DNA of 64,000 nt from the NCBI GenBank assembly GCA_021234155.1, contig JAJEKV010000025.1:2001995-2065994 (forward strand). Direction: 5' to 3'. The notes under the pieces were generated by a model. The model saw only the letters and a list, made by a program, of their open reading frames with translations. It was not told where the DNA came from and searched no databases. A program made the position numbers and the translations under genes. This document shows positions 6,913 through 58,640 of the stretch, in pieces; position 1 is the first letter of the stretch, and every line of letters begins with the position of its first letter. This DNA comes from Isoetes taiwanensis (Eukaryota; Streptophyta; Lycopodiopsida; Isoetales; Isoetaceae).

Positions 6913-7841
6913 CCAATTTTCATAGACTTATGGGCTTTGATGGGCGACTTGGGAGGAGGAGAAAAGAATTTTTGTTGCAGAAAGGTCATGGGTGACTTAC
7001 CCATATAGGATCAATTTACATAGTATCGGAACTGAGCCAACTTACACAACAGGTCAGATTTGAGAAATATTGTAAAGTTAGAAAGGCATCTCTAAACGTT
7101 GGATTTACACCAGACAGTTAAGAGTTGAAACAAGATAGTTAAGGAATAAGATATACTATAGTGAACTCATATGGTTGCTTGGTAGGATAAAGCGGATAAT
7201 ATTTCTTCATTTGCAAAAACTAAATAGAAGAAAAAGCTAGGAAAAATTTGAGCACATCTGACTTCTCTAAAATTCCTTCATGGAGTAAGATTTGGAATCT
7301 TGGTATTTAAAGGTAAAGGATGAGTTGGAAAAATATATTTTCATTTCTTCGTAACGCTAAGCACAAGTTCCCATGGGCATATTTAAAGCACGCAAATGCA
7401 ATTTTAGATGACTCACAAATGCTGTGGTTGCCTTGTCTCAGACATAGGGCACACTGTAACCACGATCTTCACGAAACTTGAGCCTTTGCTTTAAGACGGA
7501 ACGTGCTAAATTGATAATTGGTACTATGGTTTTCCATTTTAAATTTTGTTGTTGTATGCATATTATAGCTATTGGGTTAATATAGAGAACTGTTTGCCCT
7601 TAGTCGAATGCCACAAATTCACAAATATGTGTTTGCCCCTAGTCCTTTCCCCTTAGTCGGATGCTTCAGTTGCACAAACATGCAGCTGCCGACTATGCAA
7701 TTTTTAGTCAGAATATTCAGAAACATTTTTGAAAAGGTAACTTGTCAAAGTTCGTCGAAAATATATTGTCCAAGATAACATGAACGTCAATGTTTTGACC
7801 CATTTTTCTATCTGGAACAGGATATTTTAACATTAAGTCTG
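6913..7841. other. No gene recognised upstream of the LINE frame
   Basis: Only AT-rich sequence and a local near-duplication around 7595-7675 ('gcccttagtcgaatgc..caaattcacaaa' and 'ccccttagtcggatgcttcag') are visible. The missing 5' part of the LINE endonuclease would be expected here, but I could not find it. Confidence 0.4.
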
Positions 7842-9300
7842 ATGGGTGAGGTTTTACTGATGGGAGACTTTAATGGTCGTACTGGGAACTATCAAGCAGC
7901 TTTGGTGAGTCCGGATGGGGAAGCAGAATGGTTAGAGATGTTAGATAATGACGAGCTAGAGGTATCAGGGTGGAATAGGATATCAGATGACAGTGTGAAA
8001 TGGCCAACCCCACAAGGGCGTCATGTCTTGCATCTGTGTGGCGGTTTTGAGATGGTGATTTTCAATGGCGTAGCTAGGTATCCGGATTCTGGAAAACGAA
8101 CTTGTAAAAATGCAAGCGTTGTAGATTACATCATTGCTAGACCATCTTTTGCTGAACATATTGTTAGCTTGACAATTGGAGATGAAAATGAGAATTCTGA
8201 TCATGTGCCTATATTCATAGAAATTAGTGTACAGTGTCAATATAGACAACAGAATGCCCCAACTAAAGGTAAACGGATATACTTGAAATATGATAAGGCA
8301 GAAGAATATAGCAAAATGTGTGCGCAAAAAGTTGCCTCTCTTGTTTGGCCTAATACAGTACAGGAAATGAGTGATGCAATGACTAAGATTTTGACTCAAT
8401 CTGCTGATAGTTGTTTTATTTCTTATCGCCAGCAAAAGGGGTTACCTTGCAATGCATGGTTTGATGCGGAATGCAAGCAACAAAGGTTAAAATTTAAGGC
8501 AGGACAAGGGGTGAATAAAGTGCATGAAAGAAAAGTATACATTCAGATGCTCAAAAACAAGAAGCGGGCATACCTGCACAATAAAAACAGGAAAATGGTG
8601 GAAGAGTTGTTGGCTGAACCCAAAAAATTTTGGAAGAGACCTAAACCTGCACAATACAGAGCTAATGGGTTGCATGTTGATGCTTTGCGGAAGCTATACA
8701 ATGTGCCTGGGGCTGAGGGTACGATGGTAGAAGAAGCAGTAGATGTGCTTACTTTCACTATCAATGATATACAAGACGGGCTTAAGAGGCTTGCTAATGG
8801 CAAAGCCGCAGATGCTTGTGGTCTTATGGCCGAAATGCTTAAATGGGCTGGAGAAGAAGTTGCAAATAAAATGGTAGATATGTTTAATATGGCAGTGAGA
8901 GATGGGTTTCTCGCAACTTGGCAGGTGAATAGGGTTGTACCATTGCATAAATCAGGTGATGAGGCTGATCCGGGAAACTATCGTACCATCATGGTTAGTA
9001 GTTTTTATTCAAAATTGTTTGCCTCCATACTTGAGTGCAAAATAAGCACTTGGACAGAAGAGCATAATGTCAGAGCAGTAGGGCAGGCGGGTTTTAGACC
9101 CAAGAAGTCCACCACTGATCATTTGGTTACCCTTCGTGCTATGATGGATTCGGTTATTGGTAAAAAGAAACCCATGTATGCTACATTTGTAGATTTCAGC
9201 AAATGCCTTTGACATAGGGGATAGGCGAAATTTGTGGCGCAGGATGATGGATTTGAGTATCCCAACAAATCTTAGACATTTACAGGGTTATAATGAGCTA
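7842..9300 (+). mobile_element. Non-LTR retrotransposon (LINE) fragment: endonuclease C-terminal half plus start of RT
   Basis: The 456-residue open frame begins inside an exonuclease-endonuclease-phosphatase fold: MGDFNGRTG near residue 7 supplies the D-x-N motif, VDYIIA lies near 93, and SDHVPI near 119 is the catalytic SDH motif. A linker rich in Lys/Arg follows. The reverse transcriptase opens near residue 305 with KRLANGKAADACGL, then VNRVVPLHKSGD, NYRTIM and GQAGFRPKKSTTDHL. The frame stops at VDFSKCL just where the D-F-x-K-A-F-D motif should be completed. A +1 shift continues it (AFDIGDRRNLW) to about 9300. The catalytic xADD box and thumb are absent, so the copy is truncated at both ends and inactive. 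An ATG at 7842 is only the first Met of the surviving frame. Confidence 0.9.
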
Positions 9301-12317: not shown

Positions 12318-12480
12318 CTTGGTACTAAAAAAATTCTGGTGCCATCGCCAGTTCCGGCGGCTGCTCAGGGCGGATCATTCTATGTGAAAGTGTATATGGA
12401 TGGAGTTTCATTTGGGAGGAAGCTGGATCTTAGGACCTATAACAGCTACGACAAGCTATCTGTTGCGCTGGAAGAGATGT
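12318..12480 (+). pseudogene. Aux/IAA domain III exon fragment
   Basis: The frame from about 12318 encodes ILVPSPVPAAAQGGSFYVKV followed by YMDGVSFGRKLDL, RTYNSYDKL and SVALEEMF. This is the start of the C-terminal PB1 domain (domain III) of Aux/IAA auxin-response repressors, including the VKV-x-MDG, G-RK-(V/L)DL and Y-x-S-Y-x-x-L signatures. After MF the sequence no longer follows the family; the frame ends at 12521 with RRDLRRVLRSVS. No degron (GWPPV), EAR motif or domain IV was found nearby. It appears to be an exon fragment of a duplicated or captured gene rather than a working repressor. Confidence 0.8.
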
Positions 12481-12589
12481 TCCGGCGCGATTTACGCAGA
12501 GTCTTACGGAGTGTTTCATAGCATTTTGGAGGTACAGATTAGAACACCAGTTAACCAGTTTACCCCCAATAATGGGTTTGGAGCAGTCA

Positions 12590-12945: not shown

Positions 12946-14626
12946 ATGGCCTTTTGGGATCAAAGGAATTCCTGGGAGCCACGCCTTGTAGTAGAGGTTT
13001 TCCAGGATGAAGATTCTAAAATTGGTACAATTTCTGGTTATGACGAAGTACGTGCATGCCCGTCCCGTCAATGTGATGTAATTAAATGAAAACTTTCTGA
13101 AGTGTTTTGATAATTATTTATGTTGCTTGTTTTTTTAGGAACTTAAGACTGCATGGAAGAGGATTCTCAGACATCAATGGGACCCTATTCGCCAGTTATT
13201 ACTTGCCTGCTTTCTTTTACTACAGAATTGATGTCTAATTCTTACAATGAAGTATTCCTAATAAACTGATTCTGTTGGTTAGGGTATGGTTGTTTCCTGA
13301 GCACTGTCTGAAAGACATTATGCTGGCTTTGCTATCGCTCACTGGAAAAACACTAGAGGTATGAATTGGAAGTGATATAGCTAAATTTCTTGTATTAAGC
13401 TTAAAGTGATTTTTGTAATTTTTTTCTTGACGAACTTAGGTGAAACTTAGTCCTTTTCTCAGATGGCCAAACTTCACAGCAGGTATTGGAATTCACCTAT
13501 GCAAAATATAGCATTTTAATTCTTATTTTGGTACTATAATTTCCTGAAATCATTGTCTAATTTGGTGCTGCAGAAGACATTCAATGGATCCGTCGTCCAC
13601 ACATCAAAGTGCTACTTGCTGAGACACACGATGATAAAATCTGCGCCTGCAACGCTTACGATGAAGTGGGTTCCTCATATTGACATGCTTTTGTCAACAT
13701 GATTCTAACAGTAATCTGAATTTTCCAATGTAGAGGATAAGGCTTGCGTATAGAGAAGTGCCTGGGTTTTGGTGGAATAAGGAAGAGAGGTATATTTATG
13801 ACGTGATCTTATATTGGTGTTACTCTCTTTTTTAGGAGGCCAAGCTGATTTTCGCTGCCTTATGTACAGCATGTGGACTTTCCCATCAGTTAATCTAGGA
13901 AAACTTGTACAGGAGCTGCGCAAAATCACATCCTCGCCTGCGGTTCGGGTCAGTGTCCCTGAATTTATTCACCAAAAGAATAGAATAAAATACAGTACAA
14001 TTATAGTCCTTAGTGGTCGCTAAAAAAGAATAGAATAGAATAGAATACAATTATTATAGTCCTTAATGTCGTCCTTAGTGGTCACCAAAAGAATAGAATA
14101 GAATAGAATACAATTATAGTCCTTAGTGTCGTGAGGCCACTGGAGGAAATGTGCATAACTTTTAACTTTGTTTGTTGTTTCTTATGGCACAGATTGAAGC
14201 CAGGCCTCCTTTAGATTTAGGAGACAATGGTGAGGATTTTATTTCAAGCATTATGTCAAATATGGTGTCTTCAACACCTTCTGATTCAACACCTTCTGCC
14301 ATACAAGATAATGCTGAATACTCTAAGATGAAGGTAAAGACTAAAAGACACATTCTTTACTCACAAATTGTTCTCTTGGCCTTGTTCCAAAACCTGATTC
14401 TGCACTTTTTTTGCAGCTACCAAAGTTGGAAGAAGGTTATAAGGTTTCCTTTACATGTAACATTTGTTTAGAAGGTGTAAGAGACGTGTACATGCACTCT
14501 ACCTTGTGTGGTCACGTTTTCCATGAAGAGTGCATTAAAAAGTCCATAAGAAGCCAACATATGTGTCCAACGTGCCGTCGTAGGTTGACAGATCAAATGG
14601 TACACCGTGTCTACCCGGACCCGTAG
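12946..14626 (+). CDS. Tandem HARP-like domains plus RING-H2 finger protein (nine exons, 284 aa)
   Basis: Exons by eye: 12946-13047, 13139-13194, 13283-13358, 13440-13482, 13574-13665, 13734-13789, 13870-13948, 14193-14333 and 14417-14626. All introns are GT-AG and the total of 855 nt is in frame. HARP-like domain 1 (about residues 14-74) has VVEVFQDEDSKI, LKTAWKRILRHQWDP and VWLFPEHCLKDI. Domain 2 (about 101-161) has IKVLLAETHDDKI, RIRLAYREVPGFWWN and MWTFPSVNLGKLVQEL. A Ser-rich linker precedes the RING-H2 (C229, C232, C246, H248, H251, C254, C265, C268). HARP domains bind fork DNA in SMARCAL1-type annealing helicases; RING-H2 domains recruit E2 enzymes. No SNF2 motor is present. The paralog at 26645-28969 has the same exon phases but an additional N-terminal region, so an upstream exon may be missed here. 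The donors at 13195 (GTTATT) and 13666 (GTGGGT) are weak. Confidence 0.8.
13975..14135. repeat. Minisatellite in intron 7 of the HARP-RING gene
   Basis: Three diverged units combine (GAATA)n with 'caattatagtccttagtggt' and 'caccaaaa' variants, at about 13977, 14028 and 14090. They lie wholly between exons 7 and 8. The junction 'gtggtcgctaaaaaagaata' looks like the LINE 3'-end junction found elsewhere, but with a different pentamer. Confidence 0.8.
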
Positions 14627-26644: not shown

Positions 26645-28969
26645 TCATGTATTTACAGTGTCCAAGTATAATCGATGTACCATCTTATCTGTTAGATACG
26701 TGCGACAAGTAGGGCACTTTTTCTGTCTCTTGATCGCATTCCTAATGCAACCTTCATGGAAAACGTGGCCGCAAAACGTGGAATACATGTTTGTTATAGT
26801 TTCTAAGCAAATTGCACAAGTTGAAGAAACCATAAGAGGTCCAGAACCTTCATTCAGCTTCACTCTCTGCAAAAATAATAAAATGACAAAATCAAGATAC
26901 AGAAAACAAGTGCTTGCAAGCTATGCATTCTTTACCTTTGCCTTAGAGGATTCATTGTTATCTACAATATCTGAAGTCGCCAAATCAATAAGAGTGGAGG
27001 GATTTTCTGTCAACCTGGCCATAAGGTTGCATCTTGAAGATGGACGTGCATCTTCAACTTCATTCCAAGTCATATCAATAAGTCTCGGTGAAGTTTCAGT
27101 CATACGGTTGCATCTTGGAGTCGAATGTACATCTGCAACTCGATGCATGGAGGGGTAACGATAATGTTCTAAAATACTCTTCTCAATAATTTAAGAATGC
27201 CAATCAGTCAGCCAGATACAAGCCGTCAGTCACAAGGTATAGGCTCTTTGCATAACACCGAGAGTGCTTGCTGACATATTTCCTCCTCCCCATCTAGCAG
27301 GGGTGTTAGTATTATAAAAATGCGGGGATCTCCATGCATGCAAGGGCAGGCAGCAAAAAGCCAGTAAGAGGGTCCCTCCTGTCGATTTCATAAATCAAAG
27401 CAGCAATTAAAGATGTAAAAGACATTGATGGCAAAAACATGCATCCAGGGGAAATAGAGATCAGCCAGAAACAAAGGTGGATGCTATGAGCTCCTTGAAA
27501 TCAGACAAAGGATCCGCATCTGATGCTTTAGTCTTGCACCAGAAGGCATTTCATTTTGTGAATTGTCTCGAACTTTACACCAATCAAATCAAATCTTCAA
27601 AAGAAGGGTCAAAACCAGGAAAAACGGAGGATCACAATACACTAGATATACTTCTTTAGACAATCCAAGCAACATGGAGGTGATGCTCTAAAGAAGATCC
27701 TCACCATTATTACCTTCTACTGGGGGTAAAACTAAAGGATCACTAGCTTCAATCTGTATCACAAGCAAGAAATATTCATTTTCCAAAAGGAAACAAATGC
27801 CTTAAAAATAACTTCTTTCTACAAAAAAAACCTATTACCCCAATCATCTTCATTACACACCTCAATCCTAGGAGATGAGATTTTACGCAACTCCTGCACA
27901 ACTTCTTTGAAGCTACTTAATGGAAAAGTCCACATTCTGCAGGCCATACCCATATTAAGAAGAAAAGAAAAAAGGAAAAAGAAATAAAAGGCCATACCAG
28001 AACACATACCTCTTGTTAGTGTTCCAGAAACGGCCAGTCACCGATCTGCATGCGTCTCTAATTTTCTGAGAGGTTCTACTTATTGTTAGCTTCATGTAAT
28101 AAAAGCACACATTGAAAGCATACAAACAAGCTGCATGTGCTCCACTTTAGAATCTCACTTCATGATATGGATTTTGGGCACCAACTCGACCATCTTCTGC
28201 CACAAAAAGTAGCACTCTAATGCTTGAACAACTGGTATCAGCTCTATCATGGACACCAACAGCAGCATCAGCGGCAGCAGCAGTAGCACGAACATGATTG
28301 TCGCCAGGTGCAGAGTGTTGATGATAACCTTGCTCAGATGTCAGAGGTGGAATATGTTGCACCTGGTATGATGAGATCATATCAATGTTCATGCCTCGAA
28401 GATGTCTATTATGGAGACATTACCTGAACATTAGGAAGAACCCTTGAAACTCTTTCAACATCTTCGGCATGCTGTTTAGGAAAGATCCACACCCTAAAAA
28501 ACAATTAATCTCCCATTAATATCATAACATTTAGTCAATTGTTTTTTCAAAGACACATTAAACGCACCTACGTTTAGGGTCCCATTGATGGCCAGGAATA
28601 GTTTTAAACGCAGCAACCAGATTCTACACAAGAAAACAATCAGACATTCTGAAACAAACAACTTTATGGAGGTGCAAAGTTAATTCATACCTCGTCGAAT
28701 TTTGTTTCTGCTACGACTTTCTCCTGCCCTTCATAGAACAACTTGACAGGGATTCTAGGTTTGGGAGAAGCATATACGCTATTTCCTTGACATTGGCTAA
28801 ATTGCCTTTTTGCGGGAGAAAATGGCGAACCTTTTCCTGGAACAGATGAGCATGCCCGAGGGGTAGAATCATGTCGATCAGCTAACTTCTTTTTTGCCTC
28901 CATTTCTAGGTTTTCAAAATCTTCTTGAGAAAGATGGGAAACCCACTCGTCGTCGTCCTCTTCCAGCAT
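26645..28969 (-). CDS. Tandem HARP-like domains plus RING-H2 finger protein (nine exons, 399 aa), intact
   Basis: Exons by eye, 5' to 3': 28969-28691, 28623-28568, 28493-28424, 28362-28159, 28065-28010, 27936-27861, 27753-27714, 27132-26936 and 26866-26645. All are GT-AG and sum to exactly 1200 nt. The acidic start MLEEDDDEWVSHLSQEDFEN with EAKKKLADR resembles the N-terminus of plant SMARCAL1-type proteins. HARP-like domain 1 (about 72-133) has IPVKLFYEGQEKVV, LVAAFKTIPGHQWDPKRR and VWIFPKQHAEDV; domain 2 (about 182-243) has IRVLLFVAEDGRV, RFWNTNKR and MWTFPLSSFKEVVQEL. A Ser/Thr/Arg-rich linker with a degenerate internal repeat precedes the RING-H2 (C343, C346, C358, H360, H363, C366, C377, C380). 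In SMARCAL1 a SNF2 motor follows HARP; here it is absent. Exons 2 and 5 are 56 nt and exon 6 or its counterpart 76-79 nt in both paralogs, so the structures corroborate each other. A DNA-fork-directed E3 ligase is inferred. Confidence 0.85.
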
Positions 28970-44990: not shown

Positions 44991-45059
44991 TGCCGTAACC
45001 AAAAACAAAAAGAAAGAAAAACCCTTGCCTTTCATCAGATTCATCAGATGTAGGTAAAC

Positions 45060-46730
45060 TGTAACGGACCTAGCAACCTAGCACCAACATTAAGATGTAA
45101 GTAACGTTGCCATTATATAAGAGTGCATTTTCAAGGTAAAATAAATGATTATGTGCTAGGAATACATGCATGTAATGTGTCCATGCATGCAGTGTATGCA
45201 TGCATGCATGCAAGGGCATTGCTAGGTTATATAAGTGCAACAATATTATTCTTGATTTCTTGGGGGGAAGGAGTTTTCCATGGGGAAAGAAGTCTTTTAT
45301 GTGATGGTGAAGCATTCGAAGGAGATAGATTGCGATGGATTGTTGAAGGAGCGAGTTGTGTCTGCGAGATCCGGGAGCGTTCTTTGGAGCAACCTGAGGG
45401 AAGAAGCGGGATTCCGTGTGGGGATCAAGCCTTACACACCGGGTTTTCTAGTGTTTGTATAGCCGTGTTGATTTAATAATGATTGCTTTGAACGTAGTAT
45501 AAACTTGGAGTTAAATCATATGAGCATGGTCATGAATAGAATAGAATAGGCATGCATGGTTAATGGATAGCGAGCATATTAACCAATTCAATAAACTAGT
45601 TAGCGTGGTTATGGAAGCCACCGTCATTAAGGTTATAAGTAGTAATTTGAAGGAAGTTGATCTAGTTAAAAGTAATAAGATATTAGTGAAGGTTATATTT
45701 TGCTTAAGCACCGCATTGCATGTTGCATGGTAGAGATAGTAATGTTTATATGAGGATTTCCTTTGTTGCATGAGGTGTAAATTATGGAATTTCTAAGGTA
45801 AATTTGATATGGAAATGTGCCTAATTGATATTGGGTGGAATTCATAGTATTGTGATCTATGTGTAGTATAATTCTTTGATATAGACCTCTGGGGCGAGTC
45901 TAGGTGCGATGGTCTAGACTCGCGGGTTATTGCACGCTGCTATGGTATTATTTGAACATCGGGCGCTGGTACCATATGGTACAACGTCATGCACGCTATG
46001 GTCCTCCAATCTTTGGACGCAAATGTGGATGGGTGTGTACACACGGGTTACCCCCGCCTCTATGTCACCACCCGGCCCGATCACCGTAGAGTTGACCTTG
46101 CTCAGACCCAGAGGAATATTGGTTGCAATGTTGATGCTATGATTGCTTGGTTATTGTATATGTGTTTTTAATGTTGGAATTAAGTTGCAATGGTCATGCT
46201 TGGTGTAATTATGCATTGTGATTATGCTTGTTGGACTAAGTAACCTAGGTTGCGGGCGCAGGCTACTTTAAGGCTAAGTTATTGTTCTAAGTTAAGGCTT
46301 TGTGGTGATTGTTTTAAGATATATCCTAGATCCCCGATCCCCACTTAGTCCATGTGACTAACCCCGTGGTTGATGGTGTAAGCAGAGGTGTGAGATGCTC
46401 CGGAAAGTAGCCAAGCTTTGGAAAGGCGAGAGTGGAAGTGTGTGGATTGCTATTCAATAAACTTGATTATTATTACTATTATTATTATTATATATGGGCT
46501 TGAAGTTACAATTATTAAGATCATTCATAGTGTGCGGGGATATTGCTGAGTAATGGGCAAGTACATGTTTGGAACCTTAGAATATGTACAAAGATTAAAT
46601 TCTTTACCTAAGTGTTATTGTTGCAGATGCATGAGTTAATTTCTTAAGTTTTTAAGCTTAAGTAGATCCAATGGTCGAGATTGATGGGATCTCCAGTTAC
46701 CATAAAGGTTAACTGGCCAGGCCCGTCACA
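45060..46730 (+). repeat. 5' LTR (1671 bp)
   Basis: Starts tgtaacggacctagcaacct and ends ggccaggcccgtcaca. It contains a run of catgcatg repeats near 45170-45210, two gaatagaatag units near 45536, and an (ATT)n stretch near 46470. Differences from the 3' LTR are mostly small indels around 45160-45430 and 45895-46085. Confidence 0.95.
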
Positions 46731-46745: not shown

Positions 46746-48867
46746 TAGTTGGATCCTTGGATGTATGATAACGAAGTCTAGATTCAAGTTGAGGTTGTTG
46801 GATTATGCTAATAGTATTATGTGGAGATGATGGCCTTAGAGGAGGCGTGATAAATTGTTTTATGAAGGTATGTGAAATTGATTACATGGTATTTCTATAA
46901 TCTTGGTTGATTTTCTATCCTGCAAAGCAGATAAGCTAGAAAAATGTACTTCATCAAGGGGCTAACTTTGATTTAGGGTTGCCAATGTGCGCATAGCATG
47001 GAAGTGATGCTTGAGGGAGATTAAGTTACAGATATTGCGTTTCACTTTGGTAACCACTCCTTATAGTGTAGATGTGATCTCATAGTAGTATACTCTGGTG
47101 GCAAGAAAATTTGGAATAAGCAGTGCATGATATATAATGCTTATGATATTCAGAGAAGGTTCATCTCACCATATTGGATGAATAAGATTCTTGATGTGAT
47201 GTTAGATGCATCCTTTTGAAGCTAAAAATTGAGAAAACCAGGCAGCATCTATATATTGCTATCCAGTGGTGAAATAACAATAAGTTGCTAAGTTGATAGC
47301 ATTCAGGCTATGGTGGGATAAGGTTACAACACGGTGGTTGTAAGACAAGTTTTGAGAATGCTTAGATATGCTTATAAAATAAGATTGGCGTAGTCAATTG
47401 AAGCTCATGTGTAAATAGCAGATGTGTGACGAAGAAGGAAATGTCATGATACATCATGGTCCTACTTGAGGTCTATAAAGTTGTTGGCCTTAGGGTTATG
47501 GCTAGAATAGTCGGTGATAGCCTTGGAAAAAGTTCTTGGCCTTGAAAAAACTTCTTGAAGTATAAGAAAGCGCTTTAATGGAACAAAGTGGTCGTTACGA
47601 TTTATATTTAGAGAATGATATACACTTAAATTATGGCGATTGAAGAATTGATTGGCCAAGATTGAACAATGTTATCTATCTTATGGATAAGGAAGAAGAA
47701 GACGATGAATAGAGGAATAACATATTTAATCGTGGTAGTAGGTGAACCATGAAATTGAACGAAAGAGTTGTCGATAAGGCCCGCATGAGATAAAGGCAGA
47801 GGGGAATGTATAGACATGGGGAAGTGCCATTTTGAAAATCTTAGAACGAATAGAAGAGTTGTAAGTACATCTAGTAATGGTGCTTCCATGTATTGTAATT
47901 ATTTGGCATGCTAGAAGTGATTGTAAATTAATGGAGGGATGGTGATTGCATTACTTGATTAAGGATACAAATAAAGGATTGAAGTTGTGAACGAAATACA
48001 TGAAGTAAGAGCTTTGTTGAAATTAACGGCAATTGATGCCTATAAAATCTTGTTGAAAGACTAACCAAAGTGATGGGGTAATATGTATGGAAGTAGGTTA
48101 AATATAGAGGCCAAGTGTATAGCCTAGGATACTTCAATGTCATTGGATGAACTCAGAGAGGAATTCTCTCGTACCATGGGTTATAATTCTTATGGGATCC
48201 CTTGTATCAACTTAAGCATACCTAGCTATAAGATACCCGCACTGGGGACTTGATTATGTATTTTGCTTGTTACTTTTTGGATTTGGCCACCCAAGAAGTC
48301 TCAAGAGATTACATATCTAGTTCGACCCTGAGTATCTCTTTGAATGGTGGGTTTTTTTCTATGGCACGTACCTTCTTTATGAAAAGTTGCGTTAACTGCA
48401 TTATGTTTATTATATTGAATTGGATATGTAGTATACTCATAATATTTGAGTTAGTTCTAGACTTGGCGGTATGTTAAATTGAAAGTTAGAAGGGTCGTGC
48501 ATTGGAACTATCTAATATGTATCTTTCCTTTAGCTTAAATTACTTGTATGAAGCTAGCTTTGAATTTTCAAGTTTGGAGATGCATCATCTTGGATTGGAA
48601 GGCTAAGCAATTGTGTTTGACAAGGATGGGTCAGTTCTAAGGGGCAAAATTGTATTCATTTAGGAGTATGTTGAATTGAGGATTAAGATGTGAAAGCATA
48701 AAGGGAAGAGACCCGAGTAATTAAGGAGGCAGACTATAAAAAAAAAATAGATCAATGGTTGGGTTTGTTCCAAGGAAGATGTCACAAAGGGAGATACAAA
48801 CTAGATTTTTCATGAGTGCTTTAAGATGCACCCATGAGGACATGGGTTGAATTTTTGGAGGAGAGAC
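46746..48867 (+). other. Interior of the LTR element, no recognisable proteins
   Basis: About 2.1 kb with frames of at most about 95 codons and many stops on both strands. Its end, ggaggagagac at 48857-48867, is a polypurine tract. Confidence 0.7.
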
Positions 48868-50517
48868 TGTAACGGACCTAGCAACCTAGCACCAACATTA
48901 AGATGTAAGTAACGTTGCCATTATATAAGAGTGCATTTTCAAGGTAAAATAAATGATTATGTGCTAGGAATACATGCATGCAATGTGCATGCATGCATGC
49001 AAGGGCATTGCTAGGTTATATAAGTGCAACAATATTATTCTTGATTTCTTGGGGGGAAGGAGTTTTCCATGGGGAAAGAAGTCTTTTATGTGATGGTGAA
49101 GCATTCGGAAGGAGATAGATTGCAGATGGATTGTTGAAGGAGCGAGTTGTGTGCAGAGATCTGGGAGCGTTCTTTGGGAGCACGAGGAAGCAAAGCGGGA
49201 TTCCAGTGGGGATCAAGCCTTACACCAGGGTTTTCTAGTGTTTGTATAGTCGTGTTTGATTTAATAATGATTGCTTTGAACGTAGTATAAACTTGGAGTT
49301 AAATCATATGAGCATGGTCATGAATAGAATAGAATAGGCATGCATGGTTAATGGATAGCGAGCATATTAACCAATTCAATAAACTAGTTAGCAGGGTTAT
49401 GGAAGCCACCGTCATTAAGGTTATAAGTAGTAATTTGAAGGAAGTTGATCTAGTTAAAAGTAATAAGATATTAGTGAAGGTTATATTTTGCTTAAGCACC
49501 GGGCATTGCATGTTGCATGGTAGAGATAGTAATGTTTATATGAGGATTTCCTTTGTTGCATGAGGTGTAAATTATGGAATTTCTAAGGTAAATTTGATAT
49601 GGAAATGTGCCTAATTGATATTGGGTGGAATTCATAGTATTGTGATCTATGTGTAGTATAATTCTTTGATATAGACCTCTGGGGCCGGAGTCTAGGTGCG
49701 ATGGTCTAGACTCGCGGTTATTGCACAGTGCTATGGTATTATTTGAACATCGGGCGTTGGTACCATATGGTACAACGTCATGCACAGTTAAGTGGTCCTC
49801 CAATGCTGGACGCAGCGTGGATGGGTGTGTACACACGTGGTTACCCCGCCTCTATGTCACTGGCCTGATCACCGAAGTTGACCTTGCTCAGACCCAGAGG
49901 AATATTGGTTGCAATGTTGATGCTATGATTGCTTGGTTATTGTATATGTGTTTTTAATGTTGGAATTAAGTTGCAATGGTCATGCTTGGTGTAATTATGC
50001 ATTGTGATTATGCTTGTTGGACTAAGTAACCTAGGTTGCAGGGGCGAGGCTACGGTAAGGCTAAGTTATTGTTCTAAGTTAAGGCTTTGTGGTGATTGTT
50101 TTAAGATATATCCTAGATCCCCGATCCCCACTTAGTCCATGTGACTAACCCCGTGGTTGATGGTGTAAGCAGAGGTGTGAGATGCTCCGGAAAGTAGCCA
50201 AGCTTTGGAAAGGCGAGAGTGGAAGTGTGTGGATTGCTATTCAATAAACTTGATTATTATTACTATTATTATTATTATATATGGGCTTGAAGTTACAATT
50301 ATTAAGATCATTCATAGTGTGCGGGGATATTGCTGAGTAATGGGCAAGTACATGTTTGGAACCTTAGAATATGTACAAAGATTAAATTCTTTACCTAAGT
50401 GTTATTGTTGCAGATGCATGAGTTAATTTCTTAAGTTTTTAAGCTTAAGTAGATCCAATGGTCGAGATTGATGGGATCTCCAGTTACCATAAAGGTTAAC
50501 TGGCCAGGCCCGTCACA
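48868..50517 (+). repeat. 3' LTR (1650 bp)
   Basis: Same ends as the 5' LTR. It lacks about 20 bp of the catgcatg region near 48975 and has clustered indels near 49120-49240 and 49680-49875. Elsewhere identity is very high, so the insertion is relatively young. Confidence 0.95.
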
Positions 50518-56079: not shown

Positions 56080-57470
56080 GGTTTGAGGCGAAAACCATTA
56101 ACCAGAGCGGGTAATGGAGGGCCATCTAACTCTGCAAGTTGAAACACACTGGGCTGGATCACTTGAAGAATTTGATAAGGGCCAAGCCACTGAAATTTCA
56201 GCTTTCCTAAAAAAAAATTTTATCTGGAATCATAAAAAAGAACTAAATCCCCTTCCTTGAATGTTTTTATTTTGATTTGTCTGTCATGCTAGGATTTTCG
56301 TAACTGTTGAGATAGGCATCTTTGCGAAGCTCATCTAATTGTTGTAACTGATAAACACGCTCTTGGAGAGCAGGGGGAGGAGCATGCACAGTAGCAAGTT
56401 GGAAACGAACAGACGGGAGAACAAACTCAAAAGACATTAAAGCTTCTTGACCATAAATCAATTTAGATAGTGTCTGCCCTGTAGCAATCTTATAACTAGT
56501 GTTGTAGACCCATAAAACAGTAGGTAATTTTTCCTGCCAATTAGTTCTGGAAGCGTCACAAATTTTCTTCAAAATATTGATGAAAGTCTTGTTGGTACTT
56601 TCAATAAGGTCATTGCCTAAGGAGTGCTCTTTCGATGATGAATATACAAGTAGTCCGTCAGTTCTTTGACTGTCTGATTAACGAAATGAATACCTCGGTC
56701 ACTGACGAGTTTCATGGGGCAACCGAAGCGTGTGATGAGAGACATGTAAAGTACCTTTACTGTGCTGGCAGCAGTGTTATCAGGAAGTGCACAGGCCTCC
56801 GCCCATTTAGTTGCATAATCAGTGAGAACAAGTATGTAGCGAGCACGGGAATGTCGCGCAGGTGGATCCATGGGCCCAATAAAATCCATGCCCCATTTGA
56901 TGAAAGGCAACGGCGTAGCAACTGGAATTAAGGGTAGAGCGTCACGGGCCGTGGGTCATCCCACACACTGACAGACATCATAGTTGCGTGCATGAGCATG
57001 GACATCTTTGAATAGCATGGGCCAGAAATAGCCAGTCAGAAGAATTTTCCGTGGCGTGTTATCACCATTAAAATGTCCTCCACCAAGACCTTCGTGTGCT
57101 TGGAGAATAATCTCTAGGACTTCATAAGGAAGAACACACCGACGCAAAACTATATCCTTGCCATGCTTATAAAGATATCCCGTGACCATGGTATAGTCAC
57201 GGACTTCACGAAGGAACTGCTGACGGCGTAGGCGAAGCTTCTCAGGAGAGAGCGTGGGGTCTTCTGACGGTAGTGCACCAGAGATAAGATATTGGTGATA
57301 GTCGTGAAACCAATGGGGAGTGGCCGTGACCAAAAAGAGTTGTGCATCTGGAAAAGTATCAGAAACACCCTTGGACGGGTCATCCGTGTAGATGCGTGAA
57401 AGATAATCAGGCACGACATGAGACTTTCCTGCCTTGTGAATGATTTCAAATGGAGTAAACTCTTAAAAAA
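56080..57470 (-). pseudogene. Ty3 integrase, broken frames
   Basis: From 57414 the region has MPDYLSRIYTDDPSKG, a linker, then the H2C2 zinc site HEGLGGGHFNGDNTPRKILL ... HARNYDVCQ. The catalytic core (56910-56617) has KWGMDFIGPMDPP (first Asp) and KLVSDRGIHFVNQTVKEL (second Asp), then after a frame change EKLPTVLWVYNTSYK and the GQTLSKLIYGQEAL end of the core. The C-terminal part down to about 56080 shows EGDLVLFYDSR and WLGPYQILQVIQPSVFQLAE, ending with FYTNKVDTSQDTEMPD. No chromodomain is seen. Multiple frame changes mean it is inactive. Confidence 0.85.
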
Positions 57471-58640
57471 GTAGTACCCAGCAGGCGATGCGTCCCGTAG
57501 GCGTGGTCTTGTTGATCAGATAGAGCAGAGCTTGATGAAAAGAACTTGATTTTGCTACCCAACAAATAGTGACAGGATCGTTGGACATAGAAGATGAGTC
57601 CAAGTGCCTCATGTTCTGTAGCAGAATATTTTTTCTCAGCGGGGTTGAGTTTCCTGCTTGTATACCTAATGGGTTTGTCAGTATGAGAATCATATTCCTG
57701 AGAAAGAACAGCACCAATGGCAAAAGTCGAGACATCAACATGGACATGAAATGGTTTGTCCCATTGAGATGGAACAAGAACAGGAGCTTGAGTGAGCAGA
57801 ACCTTTAATTTTTGAAAAACTGCATCCGCCTGGGGATTCCAAGTTTAAGAGGATTCATCACCCGTGAGTTTATGAATGGGATCCGCAATGGCAGCTAGTC
57901 CAGAAATTAAGGTTACATAATAATTTACCTTTCCAAGGAATGAGTGTGTTTCCTTGATGTTGAAAGGTGCTTGAGCTTTGAGCACGCAACTGATTTTTGC
58001 AGGGTCCGTGGTAATGCCATCTTTACTAACAACATGACCAAAAAGAACGCCTGAGGTGACACAGAAAGTGCACTTCTCTGGATTCGAACTAATTCCAGAT
58101 TTATCACATTTTTGAAAAACCAATTTCAGTTTGTCGAGATGATCATCCATGGAGTTGTAAACAGAAAAGTCATCTTGGAAGACTTGAAGAAACACATTTT
58201 CTTTCCTGTAATCCTGAAAAACAGAAAGCATAATGCGTTGAAAAGTGGAAGGAGAGTTGGACAGTCTAAAGGGCACCACCTTGTAGGCAAAAGTGCCCCA
58301 CAGCGTGGTGAATGTAGTTTTCAATTGATCTTCAGCTTTAATAGAAATTTGATTGTAGCCAGAGAAGCCATCCATAAAGGAGTACATCTCGTGGCCTGCT
58401 ACTTCTTCAAAAACTTGATCTGTGAAGGGTAGCGGAAAATGATCTCGTTCCGTGGCCATATTGAGTTTTCGGTAATCCACGCAAACACATATTTTGCCAT
58501 TATTCTGCAATAACAATTGGGCTCACCCACTCAGAATGTTTGACCTCATAGATAAGTCCAGCAAGAAGTTTATCAATTTCGGCTTTGACGCGGTCACGAT
58601 AATTGAGGTTGAGCTTGTACCGTCGTTGCTAGATGAGGCA
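57471..58640 (-). pseudogene. Ty3 reverse transcriptase and RNase H, broken frames
   Basis: RT motifs in order: ICVCVDYRKLNMATERDHFP, YSFMDGFSGYNQISI, TFAYKVVPFRLSNSPSTFQR, then the catalytic VFQDDFSVYNSMDDHL (the usual residue before DD is Met or Val; here it is Gln), NPEKCTFCVTSGVLFGHVVS and SFLGKVNYYV. 'DDFSV' is typical of the Athila/Tat side of Ty3 rather than chromoviruses. The frame ends at a stop at 57847. RNase H pieces follow on 57840-57480: WNPQADAVFQKLKVLLTQAP, HVHVDVSTFAIGAVLSQEYD and KYSATEHEALGLIFYVQ. Confidence 0.9.

Follow-up and report, generated by a model that had tools for sequence, protein, structure and literature searches.

Background

SMARCAL1 binds forks and single-/double-stranded DNA junctions, and its HARP domains confer annealing on other SNF2 proteins when fused to them (PMC4035279). 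In that paper the junction binding is that of the whole motor protein and not of the HARPs alone, and in human SMARCAL1 the motor-proximal HARP is needed and together with the motor suffices for annealing, the N-proximal HARP being dispensable (PMC4035279). HARPs are also described as able to mediate protein contact, with BRG1 (PMC9243424). SUMO-targeted ubiquitin ligases (STUbLs) rely on SUMO-interacting motifs (SIMs), often plus a second contact, such as the nucleosome-targeting patch of RNF4, and the Slx5/Slx8 STUbL is recruited to specific DNA places by Euc1 (PMC6545562). In HLTF, a DNA-binding domain is reported to share one polypeptide with a RING ligase (PMC4666394). In the systems compared here, the STUbL and fork-remodeller roles fall to different proteins.

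In a 64,000-nucleotide stretch of the Isoetes taiwanensis genome (the window), a plus-strand gene had been predicted to encode two HARP repeats followed by a RING. This gene is a shortened member of a family with fuller copies, one of which lies in the same window. In the open-licence literature searched, which was largely titles and the beginnings of abstracts, no description of a protein with HARP and RING and without SNF2 was found.

The plus-strand gene and its HARP repeats

Rebuilding the plus-strand gene from the DNA reproduced the nine exons (12946-14626) and 284 codons of the original prediction, with a GT donor and an AG acceptor at all eight introns and a frame that runs to a stop with no internal stops (Table 1). 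An exon-7 acceptor at 13836 breaks the frame, and 13870 was used instead. Exon 8 is without the phase-1 intron that other copies have between the linker and the SIM part. The predicted C3H2C3 RING is complete, with C-x2-C, C-x-H-x2-H-x2-C and C-x2-C all present, and Pfam recognizes it in the plus protein as PF13639 (E = 1.4e-9).

The HARP repeats of this gene were harder to place. Taken literally, the expectation that Pfam HARP (PF07443) would recognize the protein fails, as the match reached 13.1 bits (E = 0.073) against a curated cut-off of 25 bits, and the two HARP pieces searched separately gave no match. The claim of two HARP repeats was nevertheless upheld by a profile whose sole input was the trio of HARPs in the SMARCAL1 of this genome, which gave the plus protein 90.9 bits, and by the minus-strand paralogue described below, which passes Pfam. 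With the same profile, residues 1-172 alone scored 93.3 bits, whereas the top value among 2000 shuffles, of which 1354 received a score, was 7.3. A ten-repeat family profile from which the SMARCAL1 repeats were excluded ranked 4o66, the SMARCAL1 HARP domain, first among 177635 PDB sequences (E = 0.001), the next entry following at 0.51. Within the first 360 residues of this genome's SMARCAL1, one HARP stretch lies above the Pfam cut-off (39.8 bits), and the two others, below it, rest on repeat alignment and intron pattern. Run over the entire genome sequence at E 0.001, Pfam HARP returned no match; every HARP is encoded across three exons, and this null result is therefore not evidence of absence. 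A HARP domain of the SMARCAL1 kind is thus found in the minus gene with Pfam and in the plus gene with the SMARCAL1-HARP profile, not with Pfam. Judged by sequence comparison, the HARP identity of the plus repeats is weak by Pfam alone and is secured through their relatives.

Table 1 Positions of the plus-strand gene, the minus-strand paralogue and their parts in the window
Feature	Position	Strand	Remarks
5′ flank common to plus gene and L031	12814-12894	+	two blocks: 97% over 31 bases, 75% over 52 bases
Plus exon 1	12946-13047	+	proposed start codon, first half of HARP_b; end GAA|gtacgt, phase 0
Plus exon 2	13139-13194	+	56 nt, HARP_b middle; same 56-nt exon in SMARCAL1, phases 0 to 2
Plus exon 3	13283-13358	+	76 nt, HARP_b end, VWLFP
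Plus exon 4	13440-13482	+	linker
Plus exon 5	13574-13665	+	HARP_c start
Plus exon 6	13734-13789	+	56 nt, HARP_c middle
Plus exon 7	13870-13948	+	79 nt, HARP_c end, MWTFP
Plus exon 8	14193-14333	+	IEARPPL linker and SIM-exon remnant (STPSDST) fused in one exon
Plus exon 9	14417-14626	+	RING-H2, C-terminal HRVY tail, stop
HARP_b, plus residues 12-72	12979-13340	+	47.5 bits, SMARCAL1-HARP profile
HARP_c, plus residues 101-163	13597-13933	+	41.2 bits, SMARCAL1-HARP profile; groups with SMARCAL1 HARP2, 100/100
Plus RING, C3H2C3	14453-14578	+	PF13639, 38.5 bits; closest PDB relative RNF4
Minus gene, HARP-HARP-SIM-SIM-RING	28969-26645	-	nine exons, GT-AG borders, 399 residues
Minus exons 1-5	28969-28691, 28623-28568, 28493-28424, 28362-28159, 28065-28010	-	spliced model
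Minus exons 6-9	27936-27861, 27753-27714, 27132-26936, 26866-26645	-	spliced model
Minus exon 1	28691-28969	-	SMARCAL1-like N-terminus and HARP_a start
Minus HARP_a	28424-28759	-	Pfam 34.3 bits, cut-off 25
Minus HARP_c	27861-28230	-	Pfam 28.0 bits, cut-off 25
SIM-like LIDMT, minus gene	27068-27082	-	fits SIM consensus
SIM-like LIDLA, minus gene	26978-26992	-	fits SIM consensus
Minus RING	26702-26821	-	Pfam match; RNF4 closest PDB relative

Other features of the window were recorded. Upstream of the plus gene, a short open stretch on the plus strand (12375-12520), FYVKVYMDGVSFGRKLDLRTYNSYDKLSVALEEMF, resembles the PB1 part of AUX/IAA proteins and is a possible gene fragment. By eye, a 477-codon open frame at 7779-9209 (+) is like a LINE endonuclease/reverse transcriptase and open frames at 56959-58522 (-) are like pieces of a Ty3-type polyprotein. 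A 1.7-kb direct repeat (45058-46730 and 48866-50517) is 95.7% identical between its copies. Phage tblastn and Rfam searches gave no match.

A minus-strand paralogue and other family loci

Querying the window by tblastn with the plus protein located a paralogue on the minus strand, whose protein carries a total Pfam HARP score of 57.5 bits over two stretches. Its exon 7 could use an alternative donor a few bases downstream, and the gene is without one phase-1 SMARCAL1 intron between the HARPs, giving a 204-nt exon 4. Further loci came from two genome searches and region fetches in which the best candidates were scored, the counts being lower bounds. At least nine family loci were found, four with open HARP-to-RING frames (the plus and minus genes, L031 and L033) and five fragments. 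L031, which lies on the same contig some 45-48 kb ahead of the window, and L033 have open spliced frames of 538 and 534 amino acids (after one donor correction), and both have three HARPs and aspartate-rich linkers. The L033 model begins at an internal Met, and the HARP_a encoded by its exons 1-2 is weakened and drew no Pfam match. Among the fragments, L032 consists of SIM and RING exons alone within the 8 kb fetched, and L056, L057, L058 and L059 all contain stops. What the sequence itself shows is that four loci have an open exon anatomy and that the HARPs are homologous to SMARCAL1 and the RINGs to RNF4 and STUbLs.

The aspartate-rich linker between HARP_a and HARP_b (L031 3050-3270, L033 2376-2930) varies in length by copy, and similar exons are repeated in that of L033. 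L056 (contig C929) and L057 (contig C690) gave an identical translated match on different contigs, which suggests recent duplicates or unmerged alleles.

Searches of a protein database that presumably holds few plants returned no HARP-RING protein with the plus protein at E 0.001. Neither of the two matches that the minus protein had there at E 1 was HARP-RING: one (1.8e-6) was a RING protein from Rumex whose sequence includes SIM-like stretches, and the other (0.043) a PF00176 protein in which one stretch is HARP-like. An alignment of three members at E 1 likewise found no HARP-RING protein in that database among the best 7997 candidates by shared words.

RING type and SUMO-interacting motifs

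For the RINGs of both window genes, together with their tails, RNF4 was the top PDB relative. NCBIfam matched the RING to rad18 at 22.1 bits, far below the cut-off of 175, and gave one further match at chance level. In a genome search in which the best candidates were scored, the RING of L034 led the non-family matches at 5.3e-10, followed by the next at 5.0e-5; over 56 residues the L034 RING shares 60.7% identity with that of the minus gene. This locus holds a lone STUbL, in which the SIM-like IVVLDDDDEVQV and TIDLTSINDDCEVVV precede a C3HC4 RING and an HRIYL tail. A RING tree of 14 rows, with usable rows from 6 of the 16 other genome loci tried, placed the fusion and STUbL groups on either side of one branch (55/91, bootstrap not settled). 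The fifth zinc position is His in all five fusion RINGs compared (both window genes, at 14453-14578 and 26821-26702, plus L031, L032 and L033), making them C3H2C3, versus Cys in all three STUbL RINGs compared (C3HC4). An RNF4-type RING is present in both window proteins, with weak support in the RING tree and one zinc ligand that differs.

The SIM-like LIDMT and LIDLA of the minus gene fit the SUMO-interacting consensus, and by the same consensus the SIM-like motifs are LIDLT in L031 and L032 and LIDST in L033. None was seen in the plus protein, which has STPSDST at that place. The E3 module is likely to be of the SUMO-targeted (RNF4/STUbL) type, altering the likely targeting logic of these proteins.

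Likely parental relatives and the proposed joint

The SMARCAL1 of this genome (L055 and L060) comprises an N-terminus (DDEW..LS.E), HARP1, HARP2, HARP3, SNF2 exons with DEMGLGKT and a Helicase_C exon (PF00271, 4.1e-8), the model covering part of the gene. The N-termini of the minus gene and L031 align with its N-terminus, which neither the plus model nor that of L033 contains. For the N-terminal RPA-binding motif of SMARCAL1, a PDB search with this genome's SMARCAL1 N-terminus matched no RPA-bound peptide. The fusion family also shares the linker IEA..PLVLP with SMARCAL1. Up to the joint, the exons of the fusion genes are arranged as in SMARCAL1 and are equal or close to its exons in length, the HARP exons being 56 and 76 nt in SMARCAL1 and 47-56 and 70-79 nt in the family. 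L031 has this pattern with one extra HARP unit, and L033 likewise with two extra linker exons.

The exon phases match at the proposed joint. SMARCAL1 exons 1-8 are entered in phases 0, 0, 2, 0, 1, 0, 2 and 0, and exon 8 ends in phase 1; in the STUbL L034, the SIM exon (which ends in a GC donor in our model) is entered in phase 1 and the RING exon in phase 0. The minus gene, L031 and L033 have a SIM exon running from phase 1 to 0 and a RING exon in phase 0, the phases of the last two STUbL exons. The homology of their SIM exon to that of the STUbL is given by phase, order and motif and is unscored. In a HARP tree, the family HARP_c grouped with SMARCAL1 HARP2 (support 100/100), and HARP_a and HARP_b fell with HARP1 and HARP3 (HARP3 with HARP_a 82/81, on a long branch). 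The grouping of HARP_c with HARP2 would put the joint just after HARP2, so that HARP3 and the motor are the missing part. Together, the phases and the tree suggest that SMARCAL1 exons 1-8 (HARP1-HARP2) and the two final STUbL exons came together at a phase-1 intron, a joining event that we infer from the surviving relatives of both parents.

This gives substance to the proposal that an E3 module had taken the place of the helicase, which is supported by the SMARCAL1 exon pattern, the HARP2 grouping and the comparison with the lone STUbL. The absence of an SNF2 motor near the plus gene also held. No SNF2 Pfam match was found in the plus, minus or other family proteins scanned, and tblastn with a HARP-SNF2 protein, covering the N-terminal part of SNF2, found HARP matches and nothing above chance level for SNF2 in the window or at L031-L033.

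Truncation of the plus gene and selection in the family

The 5′ flank that the plus gene shares with L031 contains the L031 start codon, which is altered at the plus locus. Beyond this flank, about 1.08 kb of L031 (2231-3309) is gone from the plus locus, and the match restarts at the start of HARP_b. With the L031-type start codon changed and this segment missing, the start at 12946 would be new; the plus N-terminus is uncertain because the frame stays open upstream to about 12874. As read from the alignment, the plus gene is a 5′-truncated copy in which the SMARCAL1-like N-terminus, the first HARP (HARP_a) and the SIM are lost.

Selection was estimated with a purpose-written four-taxon codon model that takes ((L031,L033),plus,minus) as the given tree. 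On the minus branch, omega was 0.34 for the HARPs (2dlnL 14.1 versus omega 1) and 0.17 for the RING (2dlnL 16.2). On the plus branch the RING again gave an omega of 0.17 (2dlnL 11.6), and for the HARPs, at 0.69 (2dlnL 1.46), this model did not reject neutrality. In pairwise counts, RING pN/pS was 0.27-0.38 in all five pairs with plus or minus, and the RING of both window genes is under purifying selection. The L031-L033 pair looked looser in every part: pN/pS was 0.53 for the RING, 0.63 for HARP_a, 1.06 for HARP_b and 1.14 for HARP_c, all with intervals reaching 1, and between plus and minus it was 0.58 (0.37-0.95) for HARP_c, a pair that includes the constrained minus branch. On these estimates, the HARPs seem to be kept in the minus gene and to be loosening in the other copies.

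These values bear on two other explanations. The plus gene may be a decaying duplicate, a pseudogene in the making, with the minus copy and perhaps L031 as the working genes. We hold this as possible though doubtful: next to L031 the plus gene has a changed start codon and is missing the N-terminus, HARP_a and the acidic linker, its SIM is lost, omega for its HARPs is indistinguishable from 1, and the other loci are fragmentary, four of them with stops, whereas its 284-codon frame and 16 of 16 splice dinucleotides are intact, its RING is under purifying selection on its own branch and the plus-minus interval for HARP_c stays below 1, though with the constrained minus branch in the pair. Among the open copies, the plus gene is the weakest for the role proposed below, because it has lost its SIM and no constraint on its HARPs could be detected. 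A gene-model artefact, in which HARP exons and a RING exon from two adjacent genes are never spliced together, is conceivable in that the splice joins were modelled by hand from genomic DNA; we think it very improbable, since four open-frame loci repeat the HARP-RING order and orientation with compatible phases and constraint spans both the HARP and the RING parts of the minus gene.

Proposed function

We put the probability at roughly 0.55 that these genes are an exon-shuffled SMARCAL1-STUbL family in which the HARPs act at DNA junctions, the SIMs read SUMO and the RING ubiquitylates. The first eight SMARCAL1 exons, coding for the N-terminal segment, HARP1, HARP2 and the linker, would have been joined to the SIM and RING exons of a STUbL at a phase-1 intron, leaving out HARP3 and the SNF2 motor. 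The HARPs, as the DNA-structure contact of the ligase, would hold the protein at single-/double-stranded DNA junctions such as stalled forks, where the SIMs of the minus gene and L031 would recognize SUMOylated proteins. The RING, probably as an RNF4-like dimer given its RNF4-like C-terminal tail, would ubiquitylate these proteins for extraction or degradation. Loss of the N-terminus, first HARP and SIM would then have left the plus copy as HARP-HARP-RING. The most likely function, as we infer it from the domains and their relatives, would be SUMO-targeted ubiquitin ligation by an enzyme that carries its own means of targeting DNA junctions.

Confidence in the mechanism is lowered by the lack, in the fusion, of HARP3, the positional match of the motor-proximal HARP. 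This missing repeat also counts toward a different explanation, that the fusions are SUMO-independent or SUMO-ligating RING proteins whose HARPs make protein-protein contacts and do not bind DNA junctions. The same explanation draws on the C3H2C3 form of the fusion RINGs, which is not C3HC4, and on the maize STUbL homologue MPEL1, which is reported to ligate SUMO but to have no ubiquitin ligase activity (PMC13324008). We consider it unlikely: the fusion RING and tail stay RNF4-like and the minus HARPs are constrained, although both facts are compatible with protein contacts too.

Within the SMARCAL1-STUbL reading, a more specific possibility, which we entertain at somewhat less than even odds, is a lycophyte fork-directed, SUMO-gated ligase that would read DNA structure and SUMO together, its copies having diversified and the plus copy having become SUMO-independent. 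Such diversification would have come about through two or three HARPs, acidic linkers and SIM loss.

A natural fusion kept by selection would offer a direct test of what HARPs do without a motor, whether fork holding or protein contact. The case also resembles clean, phase-matched exon shuffling with likely relatives of both parents in the same genome, and donor, acceptor and joint can therefore be compared directly.

Comparison with known systems

The fusions resemble SMARCAL1 in the N-terminal segment, the HARP repeats, the IEA..PLVLP linker and the lengths and phases of the HARP exons. They differ from it in having no detected SNF2 motor and no HARP3, the place of which is taken by a SIM-RING module. 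To the RNF4/plant STUbL family they are similar in the RING with its CPTCR and HR(V/L)Y tail, in the phase-0 intron separating the SIM and RING exons and, in the minus gene and L031, in SIM-like motifs before the RING. Unlike these ligases, they carry HARPs in front, and their RINGs are C3H2C3 (5 of 5) versus C3HC4 in the STUbLs compared (3 of 3).

HLTF, with HIRAN, RING and SNF2, is comparable in that the fusions likewise unite a DNA-binding-type domain and a RING ligase. The listed Pfam matches of the fusion proteins, however, include the RING but neither HIRAN nor SNF2, and what these proteins combine is HARP with a STUbL-type RING. In the Slx5/Slx8-Euc1 system, a STUbL is likewise brought to particular DNA sites, but the part associated with DNA, a SUMOylated protein, is distinct from the ligase, whereas the fusion would carry its own.
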